Positions 22,985 to 30,703 of a stretch of 64,000 nucleotides of DNA are shown here, one piece after another. A program made the position numbers and the translations under genes. Source of the DNA: Pseudomonadota bacterium (GTDB lineage Bacteria; Pseudomonadota; Gammaproteobacteria; Halothiobacillales; Halothiobacillaceae); the NCBI GenBank assembly GCA_021801265.1, contig JAJYYE010000010.1, positions 62,001-126,000 of the forward strand, read 5' to 3'. How positions within the stretch are numbered: position 1 is the stretch's first letter; each line of letters begins with the position of its first letter. Below the pieces are notes generated by a model that had not been told where the DNA came from, ran no database searches, and saw nothing but the letters and a program-made list of their open reading frames with translations.

Positions 22985-23747
22985 TCAAAGCATGAAAAAA
23001 GCCGCAAGCACCCGTTGAGTCCGAGCGACTACCCACCAGATTTCCCAGTCCAATAGGTACGCGTTAATTGGTGTTACCACGCCCGTGACCGGGTTAAGCG
23101 CGAAGCGTTTGCGGGTAAATTGCGGTGTACGTGCCGTGGGGTTATTGGTTAAATCCGTAACCGCCGCCGCCTGATCAATCAGCAGATAGTCCACCGTGGT
23201 TTGCGCCTGGGTTACCGAGAGCACCATGATGCCGTGCTTGCGGGTATCGGCGAAGATAATGGGCGCATCAACGGGATGCGGAATACCGCAGCGTTTGATT
23301 CGCTGCCGCTTTTTGCATATCGGCCAAACCCTGCAAACCGGCGATCGCGCCCTCGACAAAATTGTTGAAGGTACCAGAACTGATGGCCAGCCCGGTAAAG
23401 TCGACCACCGGCATCGCCATAGTGGGCATATGATGCGCGGTGACAAAACTCGCGTGGCAATCGCCCGAGGCCAAAAAAGCGCCGGGTCGATTTACCAGTG
23501 TTTCGAGCAGCACCTGCTTACCCTGCGGAAAACCATCCCAATGGCCAAGTATGGGGCTTGAATATGGTTTGGCAATTGGCAGGCAAGGTGCTGGCAGTGG
23601 TGAAGTTCCAGAGTAGCGGCCATCAGGCCCATCAACAGCCACCAGCAAGAAGGCACCACGGAATGCGTCCTGGGATGCCCCGAGGCTACCGACGGCGGAA
23701 ACAATGCCGTCCTGGTCCGTTAAAAAATCAGGTGCTGAACCGTTCAT
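22985..23747 (-). pseudogene. PhoD-like alkaline phosphatase fragment, frameshifted
   Basis: Two overlapping minus-strand frames together read as the C-terminal part of a PhoD-like phosphatase. The first (to about 23268) contains the GDCHASFVTAHHM metal-site motif and DFTGLAISSGTFNNF. The second continues with IPHPVDAPIIFADTRKHG and FALNPVTGVVTPI. The switch falls near 23280, at CTGCGGTATTCCG. Restoring one extra GGTAT would rejoin the frames, so a 5-base slippage deletion is likely. The N-terminal half of the enzyme is missing, so the gene is dead. Confidence 0.75.
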
Positions 23748-24238: not shown

Positions 24239-26317
24239 CTAAAACAGCAACTGCACCCCCGCAGACAATGAGCGCCCCGGTTTGGGCGCCAATAAGCGCA
24301 TGGCATCAATACTACTGGCGACATACGCCGTGCGATCAGTCAGGTTATCGAGCGCGACATACCATTGCCCTGCCACATTCCCACCACCAAACGGTGGCGT
24401 GAATTGCCGCGCCAATTTTATATTCACCATCATATAACCCGGTGTGGCGCCTGCTGCATCGTTAGCGGGTACGCGCGTTTGGCGAGCCACCATCGGCGTT
24501 TCCAGTTGCGCCGTCCAGAAATCATGCTGCCAAATGAGCGCAGGTGTCACAGTGAGCGGCGCGATGCGGGGCAAGGGTTCGCCATCGGTCAGGTTATCCG
24601 CCCGAACAAGACCGGCCACCGTCCGGACATTCACAGTATGCGATCCTTGCTCAAATACCGGCCACAAACCACTGAGCTCAACCCCCAAAATGCGGGCCAG
24701 AACGCCGCTGTAATCGTATTCCGGCAAGGCATCTGCGGCTGAGCAAACCGAAATATCCCCGGCGCCATTGCGGCATTGGCCTGTGCCCAGCAAACCAATG
24801 TAATTTTGATATTCACTGACATACGCAGTGGTTGAAAATTTCGCCGAATCGCGTTGCCACTGCAGACCGGCTTCGATGGTATTACTGCGTTCGGTTTTGA
24901 GATTCGGATCACCGAGCTCGTAGGCGCCCGTCGCATCGTGCGGGCCATTGGCATACAGTTCATCAAATGCCGGCGCACGTTCGTTATGTGAAAGCTGACC
25001 CATCACCGACCACTCAGGATGGAACTGATAAGCCATGCTCAAGGAAACGCTCGCCGGTGTGGACTGATGCTCGCTTGGCGCACCAAACCGTGCCATACCG
25101 AGATCCCTCGCGCCATCGGACGTAACCTCTACGCGCGCCACGCGGGCGCCAACGCTGTAGGACCAGGCACCGTTCTTGCCATCACCCACGGCAAAGGCAC
25201 CGAGATTACGGGTATGGGTTTTTGGCAGGAATGAAGCATCACCCAACGCCGAAAAATCAAAATCGCTGTATTGCAGGCCATAGTGCCAATCCAGCCCCAG
25301 CGCCGCGCTCTGTAAGTCCAAGCGGTAGCTATTGCCTTTGTTCAAAAACGTGGTGGCAGGCGTGCCGTTGTTTAATTCCTGGTGCTGGTAATCGGTTTGA
25401 TTGGCTTCCAAAGTGATTTTTTTCACAAAACCCGGCAGGTTTCGTTGCTCCGCCCTGAGGTTAACCGTGGTGGAACGCATCTCAATGGTGGTTGCGGGGT
25501 CAATCACCACGCCATAGATGTCCCGGCTCTGGCCAATTGACATCCCCAAGGTTGTGTCCGCGCCGGTATAACTCAGTCCCAGCGTCCCGCCGCGCTGCCG
25601 ACTGGCGGAATTCCGGATTTTCCCGTCCACCAGTGAAGCGCCCGTAAAGCCATTCGGCGCAGAGTAATCTCCGGCGTTTTGCCAAAACCCATCCATATGC
25701 AGGGCAAACTGACCATTCCCCGCATCCACCGATGTCGCGCCCGAAGTTTGACCGGCACCCGTATTGCCTTGGGTTTGAACCCGCCCCGTCACGCCATTCA
25801 CCGGCTGCGTGGCAATGGCATCATTCTCGGTCCTGATGATGCCGCTCGCCGCGCCGCCGCTATACAACAAGGCTTGCGGCCCCCGTAAGATTTCCACCTT
25901 GTTGAGCGACAAAGGGTTGATCGGGGCATTGTGGTCATAACTGACGGCAGAGGCATCGAACGCGGGCAAGCCATTGGTAAAAATCCCCACCCGATGCGCA
26001 TCCAAACCCCGAATCACCGGGCGGTTACTGTTGGGACCATACCAAGTCGAGCTCACACCCGGCAAGCCGTCAAGCAAAGCCCCCAACGTGCCCGCACCTT
26101 GACGCTCAAATAATTGCGGCCCCTCAAGCACTTGGGTTGGCGCACCCGGCATCCCGATAACGGTGAGCGGAGCAGTCACAGAAATGGCCCCTAAATCGCT
26201 CACAGGTGCCGCCATCGCGCTATGACTGGCCGCAGCGCCCAGCGCGAATAGAATGCTCGAAGAAAAAAACTGAAAAGAGGGATGCGCAGATTGTTTGATT
26301 GGATTGTGAGGAGACAT
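24239..26317 (-). CDS. TonB-dependent outer-membrane receptor, ZnuD-like (zinc)
   Basis: The 692-residue protein has a signal peptide ending SAMAAPVSD near residue 36, a plug domain (about 45-160; RPVIRGLDAHRVGIFTNG, VEILRGPQALLYSGGAASG), and a 22-strand-type barrel ending in aromatic residues (AGVQLLF). The plug resembles ZnuD-type zinc receptors. A Zur-type palindrome lies 52 bases upstream of the chosen ATG, supporting zinc uptake under zinc limitation. ATG 26317 is chosen because the longer frame would run through the box and spoil the signal peptide. Another metal or metallophore cannot be excluded. Confidence 0.85.
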   Translation of the reverse strand: MSPHNPIKQSAHPSFQFFSSSILFALGAAASHSAMAAPVSDLGAISVTAPLTVIGMPGAPTQVLEGPQLFERQGAGTLGALLDGLPGVSSTWYGPNSNRPVIRGLDAHRVGIFTNGLPAFDASAVSYDHNAPINPLSLNKVEILRGPQALLYSGGAASGIIRTENDAIATQPVNGVTGRVQTQGNTGAGQTSGATSVDAGNGQFALHMDGFWQNAGDYSAPNGFTGASLVDGKIRNSASRQRGGTLGLSYTGADTTLGMSIGQSRDIYGVVIDPATTIEMRSTTVNLRAEQRNLPGFVKKITLEANQTDYQHQELNNGTPATTFLNKGNSYRLDLQSAALGLDWHYGLQYSDFDFSALGDASFLPKTHTRNLGAFAVGDGKNGAWSYSVGARVARVEVTSDGARDLGMARFGAPSEHQSTPASVSLSMAYQFHPEWSVMGQLSHNERAPAFDELYANGPHDATGAYELGDPNLKTERSNTIEAGLQWQRDSAKFSTTAYVSEYQNYIGLLGTGQCRNGAGDISVCSAADALPEYDYSGVLARILGVELSGLWPVFEQGSHTVNVRTVAGLVRADNLTDGEPLPRIAPLTVTPALIWQHDFWTAQLETPMVARQTRVPANDAAGATPGYMMVNIKLARQFTPPFGGGNVAGQWYVALDNLTDRTAYVASSIDAMRLLAPKPGRSLSAGVQLLF

Positions 26318-26368
26318 AAGATCGACACTCAGGGGAAATTGTGTGTGGCAAAAGCCATAGAAATTAAT

Positions 26369-26383
26369 TGTTATAACGTAACA
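26369..26383. promoter_or_regulatory. Zur-type operator upstream of the TonB receptor
   Basis: TGTTATAACGTAACA matches the 15-base core TGTTATA-N-TATAACA at all but two positions. Its position just upstream of a ZnuD-like receptor gene supports Zur control. Binding is not shown. Confidence 0.7.
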
Positions 26384-26502
26384 TAAAAAAACCAAAGCCG
26401 CCTGATTTGCTAATCAATCATCATAAAAATAAATGACTACTTTTTTCTATCACCCTGCCCGTTCTGGCTGATGAATCCAAACCCTTAACCTGAGGCGAAC
26501 AA

Positions 26503-26947
26503 TTGATCGTGCGCGCCTATGCCGACCAACTTGAGGGCCTCGCTCGCAACAACGTGGTTAAAGCCATGGGGTATTGCCGTCAACGACAGCAGCATCTGTG
26601 TCGCCTTGGTATTTGGCGATCAATTGAGCAATGGAACTAACGCGAAAGAAGTCAAAGTGTTGCTGGCGGATCTCGCCAAAGAAAACAACAAGGGCGCGTT
26701 ATTCCTGCACTTAACTGTGTTTGGTAAAAATTGGGGCGAAATGGCCGCAACCGAAGATAAAGCCGTGGGCACCTGGCTCGCCGACAAGGACAATATCTTT
26801 GCATTAGCCGTCAATCCAAAAGATAAAACAGGCGAGGTCAACCCGGTGCGCTACACAGATGGCAAACAAACCGTGACCGGTGTTGCATTCACCACCGATT
26901 TGAACAAGGGCTTTTTAGGCCCGTTTAATCGCCGTTTGCTGAAGTAA
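26503..26947 (+). pseudogene. Unknown small protein gene, probably frameshifted
   Basis: A frame opening at TTG 26503, 7 bases after GAGG, reads LIVRAYADQLEGLARNNVVKAM, then appears to shift at the GGGG run 26568-26571. Removing one G continues it as GIAVNDSSICVALVFGDQL through to the stop at 26947. A downstream ATG at 26519 in the second frame gives a 142-residue product, but its first 17 residues are then out of register with the better-looking reading. I do not recognise the family. It may be a pseudogene or a phase-variable G-run. Confidence 0.45.
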
Positions 26948-27267: not shown

Positions 27268-28173
27268 TCAGATAGCGGCCACTTCGGGCGGCAGATTGGC
27301 CTTGAGCGTGGCCGCGAGGCGCTCGAAGGTTTCGGGAAACGGCGCGCGCTTGCGCCACGCCAGACCAATGGTGCGCCCTGGCGGCGGTGCCATGAAGGGG
27401 CGGGTTTCAATTGACTTTCTGCTGGTGCGCGGCCCGGCATCGACCGCCAGCGCAGGCAACAGGGTGAGCCCCAGCCCCATGCCCACCATCTGGCGTAGTG
27501 TCTCCAGACTGGTGGCGCGGACTTCTTCGCGGCCGCGCGAGCCGGTGCCGCAGACGTCAAGCGCCTGATCGCGCAGGCAATGGCCTTCGTCGAGCAGCAA
27601 CAGTTTCTCTTTCATGATATCGGCCACCAAGAGCGTCGCCTTTTTGGCTAGTGCATGACCGGCCGGCAACGCGGCAAAAAAGGGTTCGTAGAACAGCGGC
27701 TCGACACGCAGGTTTTCATCGTTCACCGGTAGTGCCAGCAAGCCCGCATCCAGCTTGCCGTCGTTCAGATGCTCCAGAATCTGCGGCGTCATTTCTTCAC
27801 GCAGCAGCAGGCGCAGACCGGGGTATTTTTTATGCACCAGCGTCAGCGCAAGCGGCAGGTAATACGGCCCCAGGGTGGGAATGACGCCGAGATGGAGGGT
27901 GCGCACCATCGGGTCCTGCGCGTGTCTGGCGAGTTCGCGGATACGCTCGGCTTCCTCGACGATATTGCGCGCGGCGACAAGGATTTCACGCCCGGTCGCC
28001 GTCGCCGTCACGCGCTTGAGGCTGCGGTCAAACAGGGTGATACCGAGGAAATCCTCCAGCTTCTTGATCTGGGTGGACAAGGTAGACTGGGTGATGAAGC
28101 AGGCCTCGGCCGCTTTGCCAAAGTGGCCATGATCGGCCAGCGCCACCAGATACTTGAGTTCTTGCAGTGTCAT
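27268..28173 (-). CDS. oxyR: Hydrogen-peroxide-inducible transcriptional activator OxyR
   Basis: The 301-residue LysR-type regulator senses peroxide through a disulfide. The N-terminal helix-turn-helix begins MTLQELKYLVALADHGHFG. Starting at ATG 28173 puts the redox cysteines of GHCLRDQALDVC at positions 199 and 208, exactly as in E. coli OxyR, which settles the start over the longer frame at 28206. It is divergent from katG, the standard target, with palindromes in between. Confidence 0.95.
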   Translation of the reverse strand: MTLQELKYLVALADHGHFGKAAEACFITQSTLSTQIKKLEDFLGITLFDRSLKRVTATATGREILVAARNIVEEAERIRELARHAQDPMVRTLHLGVIPTLGPYYLPLALTLVHKKYPGLRLLLREEMTPQILEHLNDGKLDAGLLALPVNDENLRVEPLFYEPFFAALPAGHALAKKATLLVADIMKEKLLLLDEGHCLRDQALDVCGTGSRGREEVRATSLETLRQMVGMGLGLTLLPALAVDAGPRTSRKSIETRPFMAPPPGRTIGLAWRKRAPFPETFERLAATLKANLPPEVAAI

Positions 28174-28183
28174 CTCAATACCA

Positions 28184-28222
28184 TTCGATTTTATCAATCG
28201 AACCATTCTAGACTATTCATAG
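28184..28222. promoter_or_regulatory. Palindromic elements upstream of oxyR, candidate OxyR sites
   Basis: TTCGATT-TTATC-AATCGAA is a perfect 7-bp inverted repeat (28184-28202), and CTATTCATAG is a second palindrome (28213-28222). They begin about 10 bases upstream of the oxyR start, where OxyR normally represses itself. The four-part ATAG consensus is only partly met. Confidence 0.4.
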
Positions 28223-28291
28223 GACAAATTTCTGATTGTGGGCTTTAATGATACCAGTCCGATTGTGGGGCGCTATCGCAGGGGAGAGATC

Positions 28292-30703
<2,412 letters not shown>

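Follow-up and report, generated by a model that had tools for sequence, protein, structure and literature searches.

In the 64,000-nucleotide stretch of Halothiobacillus DNA analysed here (the window, part of a 2.66-Mb genome), a TonB-dependent receptor gene in all likelihood encodes a ZnuD-type outer-membrane zinc receptor controlled by Zur, a reading that draws on homology, predicted zinc ligands and an upstream palindrome (Table 1). The system itself is not new, and we regard this as an ordinary, well-supported case of a known zinc uptake system. A literature search for Halothiobacillus together with ZnuD returned only an Acinetobacter review, so the Halothiobacillus instance may be undescribed so far. 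The reading would add a free-living, sulfur-oxidising chemolithotroph to the bacteria with the Zur–ZnuD route, which is known mainly from pathogens. It would also assign a substrate firmly to one TonB receptor while removing a tempting heme link that was based on mere gene adjacency.

Table 1. Positions in the window of the receptor gene, its upstream palindrome and neighbouring features.
Feature	Position	Strand	Basis or remark
PhoD-like phosphatase gene remnant	22985..23747	-	159-aa ORF clusters with 745-aa proteins matching Pfam PhoD; lower end judged by eye
ABM-family (IsdG-type) monooxygenase gene, 104 aa	23895..24209	+	PF03992, 75.4 bits; probably an unrelated neighbour
znuD-type TonB-dependent receptor gene	24239..26317	-	692 aa plus stop; Pfam, PDB, Foldseek, ligands
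Zur-type palindrome TGTTATAACGTAACA	26369..26383	.	exact site; 8/8 genus orthologs; top 15-mer of the window
Broken remnant, divergent gene for an exported protein without known family	26435..26947	+	two separated matches, stop, missing middle

At full length the receptor ORF spans 24239-26395 on the minus strand and begins with TTG. This start would place the palindrome inside the ORF and is disfavoured by the relatives; the ATG at 26317 gives a protein whose length is in line with theirs, and the palindrome then lies 51 bp upstream. Both the plug (PF07715) and the barrel (PF00593) domains score above their Pfam cut-offs. By sequence, the closest relative of solved structure in the PDB is Neisseria meningitidis ZnuD (4rdr, E 2.7e-47), followed by OprC (E 5e-12). 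A Foldseek search with the predicted receptor structure likewise ranks the entries 4rdr, 4rdt and 4rvw first, with E 4.3e-29, TM 0.72 and 23% identity to 4rdr, from a model whose mean pLDDT is only 62.9. The zinc ligands reported for meningococcal ZnuD are Asp-99, His-100, Glu-340 and His-499 (PMC4557270), and all four have counterparts in the receptor (D128, H129, E314 and H460), a D-H-E-H set that is kept across eight receptor sequences of the genus. The best matches and the ligands bear out the sequence-only reading, which had called the protein a ZnuD-like receptor. Against the NCBIfam ZnuD model NF038289, which is of type 'exception' and covers a narrow set, the receptor scores 242.6 bits versus a cut-off of 950; it is outside that narrow set, and our claim is for the wider ZnuD type.

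Further relatives were collected by a contig scan with an alignment (A2), which returned 72 loci; a scan with one protein returned none. Ligand positions were checked in 41 chosen loci, the other 31 being mostly partial or remote matches. D-H-E-H is present in 16 of the 41, including six close Halothiobacillus records, and the remaining 25, which include a single remote record under the Halothiobacillus label (L143), carry R-H-A/S-H. This second ZnuD-like group (L134-L150, L156, L157, L159, L160, L162, L165, L166 and L175) comes mainly from sulfur-oxidising and purple sulfur bacteria. A Zur-type palindrome with at most three mismatches lies upstream of 11 of its 25 receptors, and in G014 (L096) a receptor of this type adjoins a ZnuA-family gene.

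The palindrome TGTTATAACGTAACA differs from the pattern TGTTATANTATAACA at 2 of 14 specified bases, which amounts to 13/15 when the central A/T is counted, as the sequence-only reading had reported. From a single genome the significance of such a box is weak, because three sites with at most two mismatches occur in the 2.66 Mb (before znuA, before znuD and inside an ORF) and, at up to three mismatches, a reversed control pattern is commoner than the box pattern (67 vs 29 sites). The third close site, C8:632739, is the one inside an ORF and was taken as chance. Comparison across the genus is more informative. The receptor is present in eight of ten genus genomes and missing from two, and all eight orthologs carry the box, at one to three mismatches, in the 250 bp upstream of the gene. 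None of 996 permuted palindromes matched this conservation, in a control that ignores genome kinship and so overstates independence (receptor identity within the genus goes down to 59%). The znuD box is thus far beyond chance. Promoter prediction upstream of znuD gave a single weak match, no more than chance expects.

Searching for the same box at znuABC had been proposed as a check, and the motif is found before the genome's own znuA (C1:4240-4254). A znuA box lies within 250 bp upstream in eight of the ten genus genomes, with 0/992 permuted palindromes as good, again under a control that overstates independence; the other two (G001 and G002) have no box in that range, and their best sites over 700 bp carry 3 and 4 mismatches. 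A matrix was built solely from 12 znuA boxes, eight from the genus and four from genomes of the family, and left out 13 of the 25 znuA upstream regions examined, in which the best match had 6-7 mismatches. With this matrix the znuD box is the top 15-mer of the 64-kb window, at 15.6 bits vs 10.0 for the next. The genome also encodes a Zur-like Fur-family protein, the best match of PRK11639 (E 1.5e-34), which scores 119 vs a cut-off of 167 for that model. The conserved box, its presence at znuA, the znuA-only matrix and the Zur-like protein together make Zur-mediated zinc control of the receptor gene very likely, in agreement with what had been proposed from the window itself.

We infer the following course. 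When zinc is ample, zinc-loaded Zur would bind the palindrome before znuD and repress the gene; when zinc is scarce, repression would be lifted and the receptor made. Zinc would then be bound in the pocket between plug and barrel formed by D128, H129, E314 and H460, and passed into the periplasm with TonB-derived energy, from where the ZnuA system, likewise Zur-boxed, would carry it across the inner membrane.

Two alternatives concern the regulator and the form of the substrate. Control by Fur of a receptor that imports an iron compound would fit the single clear Fur protein encoded in the genome, which scores above its cut-off, and Fur boxes and Zur boxes alike are A+T-rich palindromes; yet the best Fur-box matches upstream of the eight orthologs have 7-9 mismatches in 19 positions, 497 of 500 permuted palindromes do as well as the Fur box or better, and the palindrome is common to znuD and znuA. 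Fur instead of Zur, which the sequence-only reading had named as the outcome that would count against it, therefore has no support in the sequence, and we hold this alternative to be improbable in the extreme. A Zur-controlled receptor might instead take up a zinc-metallophore complex rather than free zinc. Such complexes are reported to be imported by Zur-controlled receptors (PMC6103462), and the identity of the receptor to ZnuD is low, but the receptor retains the complete set of four free-zinc ligands, and we consider a metallophore substrate quite unlikely.

The remaining alternative turns on the neighbouring ABM gene, which is convergent with znuD, as had been noted, their stop codons lying 29 bp apart. 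The sequence-only reading had suggested that the two share a heme theme; put in full, the receptor would import heme, alone or along with zinc, and inside the cell the ABM protein would degrade the heme. The receptor does resemble the NCBIfam heme receptors (TIGR01785, 121.7 bits, under the cut-off), heme use with ZnuD in Escherichia coli is described in a report cited in PMC4557270, and the Asn-Trp-His triad that defines IsdG-type enzymes (PMC6018153) is present in the ABM protein as N6, W65 and H75 and kept in 9/9 genus orthologs, with W and H displaced by two positions in two of them. Because this triad is kept, heme degradation by the ABM protein on its own is possible. The protein is nevertheless below every NCBIfam heme-oxygenase cut-off, the best being HmuQ at 61 vs 130 bits. 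It thus shares with IsdG/HmoB-type proteins the ABM domain and the triad, and differs from them in falling below the heme-oxygenase equivalog cut-offs; its nearest solved relative, TT1380, is labelled a hypothetical protein.

Gene order across the genus led us to reject a functional pair of ABM and znuD. The two are direct neighbours in just one subclade: in G000, G003 and G006, and by inference in G004, where each gene is found at the end of a contig. In the closed genome (G009) about 190 kb separates them, in G001 and G002 they are on separate contigs, and ABM is present without znuD in G005 and G007. In G008, an assembly 81% complete, znuD is present and ABM was not found. The ABM gene is next to phoD-dnaB-alr in the window's subclade, and since it adjoins rpsF/rplI-type genes (names assigned from the sequences by inspection) in five other genomes (G001, G002, G005, G007 and G009), its differing neighbours suggest a rearrangement. 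No Zur box was found at ABM in any of nine genus genomes, where the best sites have 5-7 mismatches, and HemS was found in none of ten. ZnuD itself is reported not to bind heme-agarose and to have a pocket too small for heme, which argues against heme transport (PMC4557270). Given the gene order, the occurrence of ABM without znuD, the lack of a Zur box and of HemS in these genomes, and the ZnuD structure paper, the proposed heme theme is unsupported. ABM is probably a chance neighbour of znuD, and heme import by the receptor coupled to degradation by ABM is very improbable.

On its other side, the receptor gene faces a remnant of a divergent gene. Six relatives have an intact copy, 233 aa, in divergent orientation to znuD; we call its product exported from a signal-peptide-like start judged by eye. 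The gene occurs in 8/8 znuD-bearing genus genomes, counting the broken copy in the window, and is absent from both genomes that lack znuD; a sample of 368 further genomes of the class yielded one that has it, without znuD beside it. In G008 it is on another contig than znuD, next to iron- or B12-type transporter genes: at L112 (1673-8595) it lies beside an ABC transporter (permease, ATPase and binding protein) and an iron/B12/heme-type TonB receptor. The protein matches nothing in Pfam, even with the threshold relaxed to E 5, and nothing in NCBIfam; it has no convincing sequence match in the PDB, and its fold model, weak at a mean pLDDT of 58.9, has no significant fold match. It could partner the receptor in handling zinc, as a carrier in the periplasm or as an accessory protein, served by the same Zur box and almost wholly limited to the genus, but we think this doubtful. 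In relatives with both distances measured, the box is closer to the start of znuD than to the exported-protein gene, and since the window holds a remnant only, znuD and its box are kept there without the exported protein.

Two further neighbours were seen. The PhoD-like gene beyond ABM is intact (745 aa) in G003, G004 and G006, and the 159-aa fragment in the window has no Pfam match by itself. Between the znuD side and an Rrf2-type gene, the window carries a LysR-type regulator gene and a divergent KatG-type peroxidase gene (27268-30703), a pair that related loci do not have at the matching place.

Among known systems, the receptor described here is most like N. meningitidis ZnuD and its N. 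gonorrhoeae counterpart TdfJ, with which it shares the plug and barrel, the four zinc ligands and a Zur-type palindrome upstream; gonococcal tdfJ is reported to carry the exact meningococcal-type box TGTTATATAATAACA (PMC6692053). Unlike meningococcal ZnuD, to which it is only about 23-25% identical, the receptor falls below the NCBIfam ZnuD cut-off and nearly lacks the His/Asp-rich loop 3, where further zinc sites lie in the meningococcal protein (6 residues vs about 64). The ZnuD1 and ZnuD2 proteins of Acinetobacter baumannii differ from it in being reported as 41-42% identical to the meningococcal protein (PMC3516566). That source describes a Zur-boxed TonB system in A. baumannii and a gamma-proteobacterial Zur box of 19 bp, with Zur boxes at Acinetobacter znuD1 and znuD2, and the overall arrangement, Zur-boxed ZnuD-type receptors plus znuABC, is the one that A. 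baumannii has in common with the Halothiobacillus genome described here.
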